Positions 12,661 to 18,182 of a stretch of 45,253 nucleotides of DNA are shown here, one piece after another. The DNA is taken from positions 1 to 45,253 of the forward strand of contig JAAYVH010000272.1 of assembly GCA_012517255.1 (NCBI GenBank), given 5' to 3'. Both the position numbers and the translations under genes were made by a program. The stretch's first letter is position 1. Each line of letters starts with the position of its first letter. The DNA is from Chthonomonadales bacterium (GTDB lineage: Bacteria; Armatimonadota; Chthonomonadetes; Chthonomonadales; CAJBBX01). The notes under the pieces were generated by a model. The model was not told where the DNA came from. It ran no database searches and worked only from the letters and a program-made list of their open reading frames with translations.

Positions 12661-12678
12661 TCCCCTTTGCCGCATTCT

Positions 12679-13563
12679 ATGTCTGCCGAACCGTTCCGTG
12701 CCGCATGCAACGCCATGGGTACGCGGTTTGAGATCCTCCTATGGGGCGGCTCCGAGCATCGTCTCCAGGCCGCAGCTCGCGAAGCGCTGGAAGAGATCGA
12801 ACGGCTCCACTGCCAGCTCAGCGCCTTCGATCCGGCGAGCGACATCTGGGACATCAACGAACGCGCGGCCTGGGAACCCGTGCTCGTCGAGCCGCGCCTG
12901 TTCGCTCTGCTGGAGCGTTGCCTTGGACTGAGCACGCAGACCCATGGCGCGTTCGACGTCACGATCGGGGGCCTGATGGCAGCATGGGGTTTTCGCGACG
13001 CTCTCACAGCTTCGTCTCGTCAGTCTGATCCATCCCAAGGACGTGTCGGCTCGAGCATGGTTGTTCTGGACCGCGATGCCTGCACCGTGCGATTCGCGGC
13101 CCAGGGCCTGTCTCTCGACCTAGGTGGCGTTGCTAAGGGCTATGCGCTCGAGGCAGCCGCCGCCATCCTTACCGAGTGCCGCATCGGCGGCGCGCTCATT
13201 CATGGCGGAACGAGCTCCGTCCTCGGGCTGGGGACTGACCCCTCCGGGCAGCCGTGGCGCGTGGGGATCCGCCGGCCAGGGACCACCGACAGAGCGAACA
13301 TCATCGCTGCAGCGAACTTACGTGACCGAGCGCTGGGGGTTTCGGCGCAGCACGGCCGCATGGCAGGCGCTGCGGGCCACATCATGGATCCACGTTCTGG
13401 CCGACCGGCCGAGGGGATCTCGCTGGCGGCTGTCGCATGCCCCTCGGCGACCGAAGCTGACGCGTTCTCGACGGCGCTTCTGGTGCTGGGGTCATCGTTC
13501 GCAGACGAGCTGCGCTCCATGGGCCACGAGGCGTGGCTGTTCGAAGCTGCCGAGCAACCCTGA
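12679..13563 (+). CDS. apbE: FAD:protein FMN transferase (ApbE family)
   Basis: 294 aa from ATG 12679; a TTG four codons upstream is the only other start. ApbE moves FMN from FAD onto a threonine of a target protein, using magnesium. Family marks are NAMGTRFEI near the start, LSAFDPASDIWDINER, GAFDVTIGGLMAAWGF, LDLGGVAKGYALEAA, HGGTSSVLGLG and HIMDPRSGRPAEG. The length is normal or slightly short. Most ApbE proteins are lipoproteins; here no signal peptide or lipobox is visible, so it may act in the cytoplasm or the start may be misplaced. No obvious flavinylation target (Nqr/Rnf or an FMN-bind domain) lies in the window. It follows the palindrome at 12635-12660 and has no clear ribosome binding site. 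Confidence 0.85.
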   Translation: MSAEPFRAACNAMGTRFEILLWGGSEHRLQAAAREALEEIERLHCQLSAFDPASDIWDINERAAWEPVLVEPRLFALLERCLGLSTQTHGAFDVTIGGLMAAWGFRDALTASSRQSDPSQGRVGSSMVVLDRDACTVRFAAQGLSLDLGGVAKGYALEAAAAILTECRIGGALIHGGTSSVLGLGTDPSGQPWRVGIRRPGTTDRANIIAAANLRDRALGVSAQHGRMAGAAGHIMDPRSGRPAEGISLAAVACPSATEADAFSTALLVLGSSFADELRSMGHEAWLFEAAEQP

Positions 13564-13589: not shown

Positions 13590-14675
13590 CTACCAGCGTA
13601 TGGGCCGGGTCAGGTTCGGTTCCGCCGCTTCAGCATAGCCTTCATCGAAGATGCGCACCGTTGACCGCCGCACAAACCGCGTGCGGTCCTCCTCCATCTT
13701 GTCGCGGTTGCGCGGAATACCTTTGAGCAGAAGCGCCCCCAGGCGGGCCTCATCTTTGACATCTTCGAAGGGCCGCGTCTGTGCCCGCCACTTGGCGCTG
13801 CAGCGGAGCAGCCACCATTTGCGGGCGGCTCGCACAGGCCCGATTCGTTCGCCAGGCAGCATGCCGAAAACGGCCGCTTCGGTGGCCGGGTCCGTGGCGA
13901 AGACCGACTCGCCGCGTGCGAACGGGACCATAAGTCCGTTCAGTTCGCGGCTGGGGTCCACGCTGTAACGTGCCACCACCGTGTCCCACGGCACTCCCCG
14001 CACTAGCTCGCTGAGCGCCTGACGAGCCAGCTCCGCCGACGGAACGCCGATGGCGCTTACCTGAACCCGGTCAGGCGTGTGGAACCTGGCGCCGGGGTTC
14101 GCGGGATCAATGTTGCGTGCGTAGAACGCTCGGACCTCTTCGGGGCTGACCTCGACATTCCGGATGAGCAGCTTGACTTCCGCCAGCTCGAGACGAAGCC
14201 TATCCCGAAACTCCTCTTCGGTGATGCCCGCAACGGCGAGCTGTTCCAGAGAGTCGGGCTTCGAGCGTTCGCGCTCCATAGCCGCATTGACTTCGCCATC
14301 GTCGGGCCAGCACCCCTTCGAGACTGCGTACTGCCGTGCGAGCTCGTCGGCGACGAAGCGCTTCACCTCGCTGATGCCGTAGCGGCGCTCGCACCGGAAC
14401 CGCAACTCGTCCCGGCGGAGAGGGGTGCCGTTCACGATAACGACCATGGGCGTGGCCGTACGATGGTAATAGCGGCGAGCGGCCAGCGCACCGGCGACGC
14501 CGCCCAGGGCGAAGGCCGCCGCAGCCATCAATAGCGCGAACACGAGGTACCGCGAGGGCTCGGCGACCCATTGGCCCGGTCCCAGTCGGCGCAGCCGGTA
14601 GCCGGGCGGCACCTCATCGGTCGGCGCGCTTCTCGATGGCCTCAGAGGATCGTCGTCTTTCGTCCGCCCCAGCAT
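13590..14675 (-). CDS. Membrane-anchored SurA/PpiC-like (parvulin) protein, copy 1
   Basis: 361 aa from ATG 14675, which has GGGAGG six bases before it. A cytosolic stretch contains GYRLRRLGPGQWVAEP. One membrane helix follows (about residues 42-65). The outer part is a SurA_N-like helical region, then a parvulin-like domain (VVARYSVDPSRELNGLMVPF to RKWWLLRC). Parvulins are proline isomerases and chaperones for exported proteins. The domain is divergent and catalysis is not assured. It is a clear paralogue of the protein at 16073-17164: both share VADELxRQxAVSxGCWP and VVARYSVDxSRE. The two genes flank a PEP-CTERM protein, so a role in folding that protein is an inference from position. Confidence 0.65.
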   Translation of the reverse strand: MLGRTKDDDPLRPSRSAPTDEVPPGYRLRRLGPGQWVAEPSRYLVFALLMAAAAFALGGVAGALAARRYYHRTATPMVVIVNGTPLRRDELRFRCERRYGISEVKRFVADELARQYAVSKGCWPDDGEVNAAMERERSKPDSLEQLAVAGITEEEFRDRLRLELAEVKLLIRNVEVSPEEVRAFYARNIDPANPGARFHTPDRVQVSAIGVPSAELARQALSELVRGVPWDTVVARYSVDPSRELNGLMVPFARGESVFATDPATEAAVFGMLPGERIGPVRAARKWWLLRCSAKWRAQTRPFEDVKDEARLGALLLKGIPRNRDKMEEDRTRFVRRSTVRIFDEGYAEAAEPNLTRPIRW

Positions 14676-14850
14676 CCTTATCCTCCCATAACCGTTCGTC
14701 CATCGTCCGCCAGGAGCTTCCGGCGTCCTGCCCGCTCTGGGTCCCTCTACACCAGTACTATGATACTCGTCTCGGCTGCCATTCGTGAGCAAGCCCCACT
14801 GCGCTTCGCCACACTCAAGCCCTTTGGCCGGAGGGGTCTCGTTCGGTCAG

Positions 14851-14876
14851 ATGGATACCCGTCTCCGAGGGAATGA
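14851..14876. repeat. Possible decayed REP-like palindrome
   Basis: ATGGATACCCG, then a short spacer and GAGGGAATGA. It is similar in layout to the widespread TGGATTCCCGC...GCGGGAATGA repeats, which I recall from other genomes. Pairing is imperfect and only one copy is visible here. Confidence 0.3.
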
Positions 14877-14981
14877 GGCTTATGGGCGCGTGGGCTATCC
14901 CGGCTCCGGCCCGCGCGCCCACGTCATCGCGCAGGCTCTCTGCGCGGCAGTTGACCCGCGGGTGTCGTGCGCAATCTGTGG

Positions 14982-14987
14982 TATAAT
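14982..14987 (+). promoter_or_regulatory. Extended -10 promoter element for the PEP-CTERM gene
   Basis: TATAAT preceded by TGG, which makes an extended -10 (TGnTATAAT). TTGACC lies at 14951-14956, but the 25-bp spacing is too long for a normal -35. The start codon is 93 nt downstream, so a long leader is expected. Confidence 0.6.
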
Positions 14988-15080
14988 GTACTGACTCGCT
15001 TCGCGGACGTGCTACTGGCTGCTTAGCGGCATCTGCATGCGTTCCACGGGCGATGCCATCTCAGCGTGGAGAGACGAGCT

Positions 15081-16076
15081 ATGAGCTGTGCCTGCTGCAA
15101 GCGTCTGGCGTATCTCATCACGATGCTAACCGTGGTACTGGCATCGTGCCCATCGGCGTCTCGTGCCCAGTCTCCGAACTACAGTTATCTCTATCGCGTG
15201 CAGAACTTCGTCAGTTACGTCGGCCCATCACCCTACAACGACGCCACAAAGGGTGACCGGTATTTCACTTCCACCGGTTTTGAGGGGCTGAGCTTCACGA
15301 TGAACGCCTCCAACGTGGGGCAGTTCCGTGATGGGCAGCTCCGCTGGGATGCTTATGGCTCGAACCCGGCCCGCACGTTCAACTGGAACGATCTGGTACC
15401 AGCCGATCTTAGCCCAACCGGCAACAACAGCCCGTGGGACCCCGACCGCGGAGACACCGGCACGCCGTACCCAAACGAGCCAGGATATGCACGACTGAGC
15501 GACATCTTCTCTACCGGCAACATCAACCGTATCCTGGATGGCGAATCGGACGTCGCCAATGCTTACGTAGACCTGTACTTTGGCAACGGGCGCTACGTGC
15601 AATCTGATGGTATAGCCACGACACCAGAGCTCGTCCTGCTCGAGCGTGGCGGCAACAGCGCGGTGTATGTGCGCGCCATCCGAAGCGACTACACCTACTC
15701 CAACACCCTGTCCGTGAACATTCGTTCGGGCACCGGCACAACCAGTGATCCACGCACGGGTCTGAACCTGACCAACATGGGAGGAACCTGCAGTTTTTCG
15801 CTGGACTCCACAGAGATCGGGTCTGCACAGGCTGTCTACGGAACCGGCATCGACCTGATGGCTTTCGGCAACGTCAGCACGAGTGACCGGATCATCGGCT
15901 ATCAGATCTGGTTTGAGTACAACAACCCCTTCTGCAACGGCCCCGACTTGCACGGGTTCATCCTGTCGAAGGAAGCGTCCGAGGTGCCTGAGGCGCCCAC
16001 ATGGGCGGGTCTGGCGATGATGCTTGGAAGCGGCGTCGGGCTATGGCGTCGCACTTTGGGTCGCCGCACGGCCTAG
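15081..16076 (+). CDS. Secreted surface protein with a PEP-CTERM-type sorting signal
   Basis: 331 aa. ATG 15081 has GGAGA about 8 nt upstream. The signal peptide is LAYLITMLTVVLASCPSASRAQ. The C-terminus has VPEAPTWAGLAMMLGSGVGLWRR: a PEP-like motif (PEAP), one hydrophobic helix and a basic tail, the layout recognised by exosortase. The mature part is rich in Asn, Gly, Ser and Thr, with beta-strand character, and has few cysteines. It resembles exosortase-dependent surface proteins, possibly of the XDP type, but I cannot assign a function. No exosortase gene is in this window. Its TAG stop lies in a CTAG palindrome that also gives the stop of the convergent parvulin copy 2, so the two genes overlap by 4 nt. 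Confidence 0.75.
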   Translation: MSCACCKRLAYLITMLTVVLASCPSASRAQSPNYSYLYRVQNFVSYVGPSPYNDATKGDRYFTSTGFEGLSFTMNASNVGQFRDGQLRWDAYGSNPARTFNWNDLVPADLSPTGNNSPWDPDRGDTGTPYPNEPGYARLSDIFSTGNINRILDGESDVANAYVDLYFGNGRYVQSDGIATTPELVLLERGGNSAVYVRAIRSDYTYSNTLSVNIRSGTGTTSDPRTGLNLTNMGGTCSFSLDSTEIGSAQAVYGTGIDLMAFGNVSTSDRIIGYQIWFEYNNPFCNGPDLHGFILSKEASEVPEAPTWAGLAMMLGSGVGLWRRTLGRRTA

Positions 16077-17164
16077 GGCTGCCGGGGCGGGGCGGATACG
16101 ACGGGTCGAGCGACCGCATCATAGGCTGGATCAAAAACCTGGATCGAGGCACGTCGCACGAACTCATTGCGCTCTGCGGCGATGCGCGTTGCATTGCGTG
16201 CCGCTCCGATCTCAATCCGCGCGCCCATCTCGGCGTCTTCATGCGCCCGGTCGTAGGGAATGACCGACTCGGGCCACTTTCGCAGGCACCGTACGATCCA
16301 CCACTTACCGGCGCACGCGATGACTCCTGTGCGGTCGCCTTCACGCAACCTCCATATCGCGGCCTCTGCGTCGGGAGACGCGGAGAACACCGAACCGCCT
16401 TTGGCAAACGGATCCATCAGGCCGGCGTGCTCACGTGAACGGTCCACGCTGTAACGCGCGACAACGGCTAGCCACGGCTGATGGCGGGCAAGGTCCAGGA
16501 GAGCAGCCTCGGCGGCGCCTCGGGTATCTGTCACGATGACTGCAACCTGCATCTTCGCGGGCGATCGAAACACCGCGCGCGGATTCCTGGGGTCAACATT
16601 GCGGCTGTAGAAGTAGCGCACGTCGGCTTCCGAAGGCCGCACATCCTTGACGATGAGGTTAATCTCCGCCAGGCGGTGGCGAAGGCGCTTCTTGTACTCG
16701 GCCTCGGTCACGTTATCCTTCATCATCCGCTCCATGAAGCCCGGCTCAGCGGCCTCCTTTCGGAAGCGCGCCTCCACCTGCTCGACCGAGGGCCAGCATC
16801 CCTGGGACACCGCGAACTGGCGCATGAGCTCATCGGCCACCATGCTGCCAACAACCGCTGGGCCGTACTTCCGCTCGAGGTGAGCCAGAACCTGATCGCG
16901 CCGAATAGGAACGCCGTTGACGGCCACGATAGCGGTCTGTGCCTTGCGCAGGTGGTAGACGCGCATGGCCTGGATCGTCGCGCCGCACGTCACCAGCGCT
17001 ACGGCACAGGCGATTCCCCACATCCGCCAACGGACAGAGTAGGGCTCCGCCACCCACTGGGCGGGCCCGATGCGTCGGAGCCGATAGCCTCGGGGGACTT
17101 CGGCGGGATCGGGACGCCTGTCTGCCGCCGCAAGGTCAGCAGGCACGGGTGGGCGCCGAAACAT
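16073..17164 (-). CDS. Membrane-anchored SurA/PpiC-like (parvulin) protein, copy 2
   Basis: 363 aa. AAGGAG lies ten bases before ATG 17164. The layout equals copy 1: cytosolic GYRLRRIGPAQWVAEP, a membrane helix at about residues 46-68, a SurA_N-like region (NGVPIRRDQVLAHLERKYG) and a parvulin-like domain (VVARYSVDRSREHAGLMDPF to GKWWIVRC). A role as envelope foldase is likely but the active site is divergent. The first part of both copies (Pro-x-Gly-Tyr-Arg-Leu-Arg-Arg ... Gln-Trp-Val-Ala-Glu-Pro) is unusually conserved for a cytosolic tail and may be a binding site. It converges on the PEP-CTERM gene, sharing a CTAG stop. Confidence 0.65.
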   Translation of the reverse strand: MFRRPPVPADLAAADRRPDPAEVPRGYRLRRIGPAQWVAEPYSVRWRMWGIACAVALVTCGATIQAMRVYHLRKAQTAIVAVNGVPIRRDQVLAHLERKYGPAVVGSMVADELMRQFAVSQGCWPSVEQVEARFRKEAAEPGFMERMMKDNVTEAEYKKRLRHRLAEINLIVKDVRPSEADVRYFYSRNVDPRNPRAVFRSPAKMQVAVIVTDTRGAAEAALLDLARHQPWLAVVARYSVDRSREHAGLMDPFAKGGSVFSASPDAEAAIWRLREGDRTGVIACAGKWWIVRCLRKWPESVIPYDRAHEDAEMGARIEIGAARNATRIAAERNEFVRRASIQVFDPAYDAVARPVVSAPPRQP

Positions 17165-17278: not shown

Positions 17279-18004
17279 CTAAGGCCCTCGTTGGCGCATC
17301 TGCTCATAGCGCATAATCGAGCGCGCGATGTCGGCCTTGAGCTCGGGGGACATGCTGCGCCACATGGTGGTGACGAAGTCAGCCCGGGAGCCTGGATCGA
17401 GCGTCTGGAGCAAGGACATGGCTTGCTGCATGCCCGCTTGCTGAGAGTCAGGATCGAGCGAGAAGAAGGTGCCCAGCATGTCGCCAAAGACATCCACCAC
17501 AACCGACTGATCCTGCGGCGCACGCTCATCGGCTTGCGGTTTGGCGGCCGACTCCCGGGGCGCCCTGGCGTGCAGGATGAGGTAGACCGTGCGGTACTGG
17601 GCCTTGGTCAGTTCCGATCGGTAGGCGGGCGTTACCGAGTAGTTCCCCATCAGTACCGTTGCTCGCGTGTCGGCAGGCTTCTCGATGACAAGATTGGCTC
17701 CCGACTGTCCCTCCACCATGCGCACGCGATCCGCGAGAGCCCTCGCGGTTGGCATCGGCTTGCCCGATGGCACCTGCACATGGAGCCGCCGCCACGTAGA
17801 TCCGGGCATCTCCGCCACCAGCGCATCCAGAGCCTTCTCGATCGTGGCGGCCCTGAGGGAGGCCGATGACGACGCCGGCACGGTCAGTCCGGTCTCGACG
17901 ACAACCTGCGCTTTGAAGCGCTTGGCGATGGCGTCGGCAGCGTTGCCATCTCCCTGCATGGTAACCGCCATCATCAACACAGCCGCAATGTAGCCAGGGG
18001 TCAT
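17279..18004 (-). CDS. Secreted protein of unknown function
   Basis: 241 aa. GAGGAGG lies five bases before ATG 18004; an upstream extension of 35 codons is unlikely. The start MTPGYIAAVLMMAVTMQG looks like a short signal peptide. The middle (EKALDALVAEMPGSTWRRLHVQVP) has the alpha/beta look of secretin-STN-like modules, but I do not recognise a family. A segment near the C-terminus (SVVVDVFGDMLGTFFSLDPDSQQAGMQQAMSLLQTLDP) is helical, and the end DIARSIMRYEQMRQRGP is charged. It is divergent from the next gene. Confidence 0.6.
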   Translation of the reverse strand: MTPGYIAAVLMMAVTMQGDGNAADAIAKRFKAQVVVETGLTVPASSSASLRAATIEKALDALVAEMPGSTWRRLHVQVPSGKPMPTARALADRVRMVEGQSGANLVIEKPADTRATVLMGNYSVTPAYRSELTKAQYRTVYLILHARAPRESAAKPQADERAPQDQSVVVDVFGDMLGTFFSLDPDSQQAGMQQAMSLLQTLDPGSRADFVTTMWRSMSPELKADIARSIMRYEQMRQRGP

Positions 18005-18182
18005 GGTGTCCTCCTCTAGTAGCACCGTACATCGTACGCATACGCTGCGTGCACGCGAACCGTCGCACGCAGCCCTGTCACAGGCAATAGACGCGGAGCT
18101 GCGTCTCATGGCTTCGGCAATCTCAGGGAGTGGCGCTCAACGGCGGGCCGTACTGCTGACAAACCCAGAAGGGGGACAGCCC

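Follow-up and report, generated by a model that had tools for sequence, protein, structure and literature searches.

Parvulin-like membrane proteins flanking an XDP2-type gene in a Chthonomonadales bacterium, and the linkage of their family to PEP-CTERM-like genes

The present analysis bears on how PEP-CTERM proteins stay export-competent before the exosortase acts. The window analysed here is a 45,253-nucleotide stretch of DNA from a Chthonomonadales bacterium (genome G000). In it, the gene for an XDP2-type exosortase-dependent surface protein lies between the genes for two parvulin-like membrane proteins, P1 and P2. An earlier note on this DNA regarded the pair as foldases and the trio as a possible dedicated unit around one exported client. 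Are P1 and P2 foldases, and is their relationship to the middle gene more than chance? Among the matches listed from the open-licence PMC literature, no description of the P1-XDP2-P2 arrangement was found. The features are as follows.

12667..13563, plus strand: ApbE-like gene, which also adjoins P1 in genome G005
13590..14675, minus strand: P1, membrane-anchored parvulin-like protein, 361 aa (Rotamase_2 38.4 bits, cut-off 27; homology; structure model)
13785..14078, minus strand: parvulin-fold domain of P1, residues 200-297, with Ala208 and Trp288 at the catalytic histidine positions
14454..14555, minus strand: transmembrane helix of P1, residues 41-74 (structure prediction)
14557..14603, minus strand: cytosolic motif of P1, GYRLRRLGPGQWVAE(P), a predicted beta hairpin with strands at residues 26-32 and 35-40
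14982..14987, plus strand: TATAAT preceded by TGG (extended -10) of the XDP2 gene
15081..16076, plus strand: XDP2-type exosortase-dependent surface protein, 331 aa, whose start resembles a signal peptide (NF041929 152 bits, cut-off 75)
15984..16076, plus strand: PEP-CTERM-like tail of XDP2, VPEAP-hydrophobic-RR (own tail criterion)
16073..17164, minus strand: P2, paralog of P1, 363 aa (homology; Rotamase_2 15.5 bits, cut-off 27)
17043..17089, minus strand: cytosolic motif of P2, GYRLRRIGPAQWVAE(P)
17279..18109, minus strand: 276-aa protein with a signal-peptide-like segment, whose G005 homolog is located about 6 kb from P2

The three open reading frames are confirmed in the order P1 (minus), XDP2 (plus), P2 (minus). 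The start of P1 is most likely ATG 14675, not TTG 14792; by reading, GGGAGGAT is located directly before ATG 14675. GTG 15066 is an alternative start of the XDP2 gene.

The paralogous pair and its cytosolic motif

P1 and P2 share 44% identity (E 5e-88) and are thus homologous, as the earlier description of them as paralogs had it. In both, the outer part is PrsA-like. The cytosolic motif said to be common to the two minus-strand genes is present in both, as GYRLRRLGPGQWVAEP in P1 and GYRLRRIGPAQWVAEP in P2. The one membrane helix described with it is predicted in P1, downstream of the motif. The helix of P2 contains two cysteines, by eye with no strict lipobox.

A degenerate DNA pattern of the motif, with at most one mismatch allowed, is seen at six sites in 291 genomes of the phylum. 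All six belong to P1 or P2, in three related genomes: G000, its genus mate G001, and G005, which belongs to another genus. The same pattern reversed gives no match in the 291 genomes. As a check, it had been proposed to look for the motif alone elsewhere; within the phylum, it is seen in P1 and P2 only. The P1/P2 duplication predates the split of the two genera. Residues 18-40 are the best conserved region of P1/P2, with 73% mean pairwise identity, and the N-terminal 40-41 residues have no Pfam match at E <= 10.

A parvulin fold with replaced histidines

The parvulin fold is recognized by Rotamase_2 in P1, while P2 scores below the cut-off and is assigned only via homology to P1. The structure model of P1 (pLDDT 87.3, pTM 0.65) matches PrsA (Foldseek E 2e-12), and the best structural matches of its outer part are the PrsA foldase and Bacillus YacD. 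The parvulin domains of P1 and PrsA match tightly (Z 15.4, 1.8 A over 93 residues), whereas superpositions of the whole chain are loose (at least 8 A).

The two catalytic histidine columns are defined by PrsA, as the histidines of the SHILV/RHILV and GYHIIK stretches. Both are replaced in all 29 aligned family members, the first by V, I or A and the second by W or G. Three of the 29 contain a histidine two residues upstream of the second column, where a shifted histidine is possible. Because of these replacements, the term foldase no longer suits the pair; judged from their sequences, P1 and P2 are probably non-catalytic chaperones. Since the catalytic pair is lost throughout the family, holding rather than isomerisation may be the function that was retained.

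The nearest known systems resemble P1 and P2 only in part. PrsA is a lipoprotein and keeps the histidine pair, whereas the membrane helix of P1 is without cysteine and the histidine pair is absent. The EpsD family PPIase (TIGR02925) is likewise a parvulin-type protein tied to an exosortase system; P1 and P2 show no match to TIGR02925 at E <= 1. PpiD of E. coli is described in PMC9643414 as having a single N-terminal membrane segment, a large outer part with a SurA/PrsA-related chaperone domain, and a parvulin fold that is catalytically inactive. P1, with a predicted membrane anchor and a parvulin domain whose catalytic residues are replaced, may resemble PpiD in both points. P1 is shorter than PpiD and scores 11.8 bits against the PpiD model NF008054 (cut-off 493); also unlike PpiD, P1 and P2 carry the cytosolic hairpin motif and are linked to genes with PEP-CTERM-like tails.

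The XDP2 gene and the trio in related genomes

The plus-strand protein between the pair had been called a PEP-CTERM surface protein. It belongs to the XDP2 family and ends in VPEAP-hydrophobic-WRRTLGRR, which agrees with our own tail criterion of a short Pro-Glu motif, a hydrophobic helix and a basic end, and the genome contains one exosortase (183.7 bits). Genome searches with PF07589 and TIGR02595 (E <= 10, E <= 5) do not recover it, and no general PEP-CTERM model matches when the protein is scanned against Pfam and NCBIfam at E <= 10. The label rests on the tail and the XDP2 membership, since the general models miss the protein. The extended -10 sequence of the promoter reported earlier is present 93 nt upstream of ATG 15081. 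The promoter scanner gives no -35 partner for this TATAAT, which is compatible with an extended -10. By reading, TATAAT is retained in G001 and G005, and TGn in G001 only.

Conservation of the trio in relatives had been proposed as the test, and the outcome is mixed. It is intact in G001. In G005, P2 and XDP2 are adjacent with the same 4-nt overlap of their stop codons as in G000, while P1 is on a separate contig beside ApbE. Adjacency in the three motif-bearing genomes is thus 3/3 for P2-XDP2 and 2/3 for P1-XDP2.

Eight XDP2-type loci from two other families (seven above the cut-off and one below) contain no blastp match to P1, P2 or their third paralog P3 at E <= 1e-3, a search which a more distant parvulin could escape. 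A ninth locus examined in the phylum has no such neighbour either. Unlike these nine, the middle gene of the present trio is flanked by P1 and P2. XDP2 as such does not need P1, P2 or P3, because XDP2-type genes occur in the two other families without them; by this blastp search, a general association of XDP2 with these parvulins is rejected.

P1 and P2 could instead be general envelope chaperones, equivalent to PpiD or PrsA, which arose by duplication, with XDP2 merely inserted between or next to them and each independent of the other. This is a possibility that we would take seriously without expecting it. It fits the XDP2 genes above the cut-off in seven other genomes without a P1/P2/P3-like neighbour, the broken trio of G005, and P4 and other family copies without a PEP-CTERM-like neighbour. 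It also fits the strands: P1 and P2 lie opposite to XDP2, so they are not one transcript with it. However, the P2-XDP2 adjacency and the identical stop overlap are kept across two genera, and PEP-CTERM-like neighbours recur in 9 of 11 genera, where the clients outside the motif clade are unlike XDP2.

Linkage of the family to PEP-CTERM-like genes and to the exosortase cluster

PF07589 and TIGR02595 are too insensitive for a PEP-CTERM census here, and therefore our own tail criterion was used. A PEP-CTERM-like gene is the neighbour of 14 of 30 family genes, in these 9 genera, against about 0.3 expected; 11 were assigned by the automatic criterion and 3 by inspection. By the criterion alone, a PEP-CTERM-like ORF is located no further than 1 kb from 12/30, and one of these is judged false. 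The criterion was set on these same loci and relaxed once after the missed case G013_C12; the first setting gives 11/30 and the relaxed settings 12/30, with one judged false in each. In the control, 0.9% of random 3.1-kb stretches are positive (one match at every setting); these are the starts of arbitrary contigs, unmatched for function. The family is thus linked to exported proteins that have PEP-CTERM-like tails far more often than by chance. The earlier idea of a dedicated unit around an exported client is supported in part.

The count of 30 excludes distant rows of the tree (G012_C93, G007_C5, G004_C494, G006_C39, G003_C10, G020_C143) and broken or contig-end copies (G015 C1, G025 C46, G004 C421), whose stretches are negative by the criterion. 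In the distant row G006_C39, a PEP-CTERM-like ORF is seen beside the family gene.

Among nine neighbour proteins scanned, one passes the general PEP-CTERM model (G019, TIGR02595 16.7 bits, cut-off 16). Another six are matched by PEP-CTERM family models at scores under the cut-off, and two have no match. Since most are under the curated cut-offs, "PEP-CTERM-like" rests mainly on tail shape. For 16 of the 30 family genes, the criterion and inspection show no PEP-CTERM-like neighbour up to 1 kb away; the three P4 copies and the P1 gene of G005 are among them. Adjacency is not required for a client, because at least six further PEP-CTERM-like tails in G000 are encoded on contigs that give no parvulin match.

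Gene linkage is not equal to physical interaction, and a common location in surface or exopolysaccharide regions could suffice. Some loci do resemble polysaccharide clusters by eye, and an exosortase is on the same contig at 7 kb in G007 C41 and at 23 kb in G003 C2. That the neighbourhood reflects only joint residence in such islands is rather unlikely, given the close and oriented arrangement. In G003, G004, G006, G007, G013, G016, G019 and G021, the PEP-CTERM-like gene is on the same strand and just downstream; where the criterion is positive outside the motif clade (eight loci), the distance is 35-299 bp. By eye, the G016 and G021 loci adjoin a thrS-like gene, not polysaccharide genes.

Because family genes repeatedly adjoin genes of the PEP-CTERM/exosortase system, a little-known dedicated chaperone branch of this system is suggested. 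We lean towards placing P1 and P2 in a branch of PEP-CTERM/exosortase sorting made up of chaperones that are tethered to the membrane and probably non-catalytic, with XDP2 as the likely client of the pair. Since its genes are linked with those of likely substrates as well as with the exosortase cluster, the family offers direct candidates for a role in keeping PEP-CTERM proteins export-competent. We infer the chaperone activity, the client, the membrane orientation and each of the following steps. P1 and P2, from a family that spans this order, would be anchored in the inner membrane as proteins of the PrsA/SurA/PpiD kind. XDP2 would be exported through Sec, and the SurA_N-like and parvulin-fold parts of P1 and P2, facing outward, would bind its unfolded chain beside the translocon. 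They might keep XDP2 soluble until the exosortase recognizes the C-terminal VPEAP-helix-Arg tail. The cytosolic hairpin motif may bind a cytosolic or translocon partner.

The recognizing enzyme would be the single exosortase, and P3 is part of its gene cluster. By tblastn, the genes for the exosortase, EpsI and P3 follow one another on the same strand in all three motif-bearing genomes, G000, G001 and G005, and the exosortase and EpsI of G000 are above the TIGR02602 and TIGR02914 cut-offs. Among 118 parvulin matches in 61 genomes, 16 are located no more than 5 kb from a match to the exosortase, where about 0.45 are expected. The cytosolic N-terminal domain of P3 matches phrog_6299, the phage terminase small subunit (E 1.9e-8, 1.6e-10 and 7.6e-7 in three genomes). 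Domains of this type are usually DNA-binding. It can be speculated from this resemblance, from the conservation of the P1/P2 motif and from the replaced catalytic residues that these proteins are membrane-bound regulators. Exosortase substrates that are unfolded or accumulate would then be sensed by the outer parvulin-like part, and the cytosolic part would pass the signal inward. Such a role seems improbable, as the cytosolic part of P1/P2 is only about 40 residues long and without a Pfam match at E <= 10, and the P3 domain is modelled with low confidence (pLDDT 64.5).

If the chaperone reading is extended beyond the trio, there might tentatively be an order-wide exosortase chaperone branch of tethered parvulins without catalysis, each coupled to particular PEP-CTERM-like clients. 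Their cytosolic heads, the hairpin of P1/P2 and the terminase-small-subunit-like domain of P3, would then be interchangeable and could report the state of the client or dock a cytosolic partner.

Structure of the paralogous pair and loss of the catalytic histidines

As the earlier note observed, two minus-strand paralogs flank a plus-strand surface-protein gene in the window; the paralogs are 44% identical:

13590–14675, minus strand: P1, membrane-anchored parvulin-like protein
15081–16076, plus strand: XDP2, between P1 and P2; NF041929-type exosortase-dependent surface protein of 331 residues with a signal-peptide-like start
16073–17164, minus strand: P2, paralog of P1

P1 and P2 consist of about 40 residues, a single hydrophobic helix and an outer part. 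Pfam Rotamase_2 is over the cut-off on P1 (38.4 bits) and under it on P2 (15.5 bits). In the AlphaFold2 model of P1 (mean pLDDT 87.3; input alignment of 29 sequences), the cytosolic GYRLRRxGPxQWVAEP-type motif is a predicted hairpin (residues 26–32 and 35–40) directly ahead of the helix (41–74). By Foldseek and VIA-align, the outer part groups with PrsA, a Bacillus YacD model and SurA with loose whole-chain fits, while domain 200–297 fits the PrsA parvulin domain tightly (Z 15.4, rmsd 1.8 over 93 residues).

The parvulin-centre histidines of PrsA align with Ala208 and Trp288 of P1. Here the family comprises P1, P2, the further paralogs P3 and P4, and relatives in the order (30 genes, 11 genera). 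Among 29 aligned members, 20 have V, seven I and two A at the first histidine column, and at the second 28 have W and one has G; three of the 29 have a histidine two residues ahead of the second column. This resembles PpiD, whose isomerase domain is reported, in work cited in PMC9643414, to have the parvulin fold without activity. By this analogy, the family members most likely act as chaperones and lack isomerase activity. The "dedicated folding unit" proposed earlier is plausible in modified form: P1 and P2 plausibly belong to a family of non-catalytic membrane chaperones linked to PEP-CTERM/exosortase sorting, and the duplicated pair with XDP2 would be one local version of it.

Distribution of the motif and history of the trio

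The pattern G-Y-R-L-x-R-hydrophobic-G-xxx-W-[VI]-A-E-P has six matches in 291 genomes of the phylum, the same six as in a 61-genome search; the reversed pattern, used as control, has none in the 291. All six are P1 and P2 of the window's own genome, G001 (same genus) and G005, and the motif, which the earlier note asked to be sought alone elsewhere, was found only there. Residues 18–40, containing the motif, are the best-conserved stretch of the six proteins (mean pairwise identity 73%; helix 31%, parvulin domain 54%). The three genomes are mutually related, and the co-occurrence of P1, P2 and XDP2 in them may be a single event.

Conservation of the trio in relatives is partial. In G001, P2, XDP2 and P1 are adjacent in the same order as in the window. 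In G005, XDP2 and P2 converge and their stop codons overlap by 4 nt, identically to the window, but P1 is on a different contig. There, P1 adjoins ApbE and two genes, one of them Gfo/Idh-like by Pfam, which also precede P1 in the window; the 276-aa gene of the window has a G005 homolog ~6 kb from P2, on P2's contig. Both sets of neighbours are present in the window, so the intact trio is probably ancestral and the G005 arrangement a later break-up of it, as far as three genomes tell. A tree of 36 sequences, drawn with midpoint rooting, places the P1 and P2 clades as sisters (100/100). Each includes G005, so the P1/P2 duplication predates the split of the genera. P1–P4 of the motif genomes cluster together with moderate support (92/86).

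XDP2 of G001 (L039:8058-9440) has its C-terminal end out of frame, either by MAG assembly error or by real change. A BamB-like gene was also seen near the pair:

L041:8262-9377: BamB-like beta-propeller gene beside P1 in G005 (TIGR03300, 211 bits, under the cut-off of 285)
L039:1126-2328: its homolog in G001 (63% identity), ~5 kb from P2

NF041929 is over the cut-off in 10 of the 291 genomes and has E <= 1e-6 in 12. Nine XDP2-type loci lie outside the motif clade. Near eight of them, blastp found no P1, P2 or P3 match at E <= 1e-3; the ninth (G054, L057) has none at E <= 1e-5.

PEP-CTERM-like genes beside the family

PEP-CTERM-like tails were detected by an automatic criterion devised here (Pro-Glu-type motif, hydrophobic stretch and basic end). 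An ORF with a tail of this type lies within 1 kb of 12 of the 30 family genes; the neighbour at G013_C25 resembles a multi-pass transporter and was judged false. Control stretches (37 arbitrary contig starts, 523,562 bp in total, from 14 of the same genomes) gave one match, also false-looking; 0.88% of random 3.1-kb windows touch a criterion match, corresponding to ~0.3 of 30 expected. Three genes were added by inspection: P1 and P2 of G001, whose XDP2 has its last codons out of frame, and G028_C375, whose neighbour is cut by the contig end and resembles the G016 protein at its start. The total is 14/30 genes in 9/11 genera. These are not independent cases, since one XDP2 is the neighbour of both P1 and P2 and a single genus contains G016, G021 and G028. 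In all eight criterion cases outside the motif clade that were judged true, the PEP-CTERM-like gene lies directly downstream on the same strand, 35–299 bp away.

Nine neighbour proteins were scanned. One exceeds the TIGR02595 cut-off (G019, 16.7 bits against 16), six match PEP-CTERM family models under the cut-off, with E from 9.7e-5 to 0.19, while two (G007 and one of G016) match no such model. Among the six, the G013 neighbour also exceeds an LPXTG-anchor model (16.7 against 15.9). Since few reach curated cut-offs, "PEP-CTERM-like" mainly describes tail shape. By eye, at least six more such tails are seen in the own genome, on contigs without a parvulin match.

In L055 and L056 (G021 C14 and G016 C41), the parvulin gene is followed by four tandem same-strand genes of 195–208 aa with PEP-CTERM-like tails. 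P4 (L043, L049, L058) has a charged cytosolic N-terminus; by eye, the genes around it seem conserved among three genomes, with no PEP-CTERM-like gene by the criterion.

Exosortase clusters and P3

The 16 remaining family genes include three copies of P3 and G017_C297, each with an exosortase match no more than 1.7 kb away, and three copies of P4, which lack such a neighbour. The own genome has one exosortase (C285); downstream of it, in the same orientation, come an EpsI gene and P3. G001 (76, 73 and 71% identity) and G005 (65, 58 and 56%) have the same three-gene row, again on a single strand.

In 61 genomes with 76 exosortase matches, 16 of 118 parvulin matches are within 5 kb of an exosortase match, against ~0.45 expected under uniform placement. 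Family members account for four of the 16, namely the three P3 copies and G017_C297. Of the other twelve, eleven directly precede a same-strand exosortase and one, in G052, lies downstream; the three of these twelve taken into the tree form a separate clade. The closest known family to these non-family parvulins is EpsD (TIGR02925); among five scanned, one matches it, weakly (19.9 bits; cut-off 108.9). The text of Haft et al. 2006 (PMC1569441) mentions EpsI and does not contain EpsD, peptidyl-prolyl, isomerase or chaperone.

The N-terminal cytosolic domain of P3 matches a phage terminase small subunit (phrog_6299, best E 1.6e-10):

L042:6449-6850 (G000 C285, own genome): P3 terminase-small-subunit-like domain
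L044:7310-7714: the same domain
L048:5821-6220: the same domain

It is followed by a basic linker, the membrane helix and the parvulin domain, and its model is helical at low confidence.
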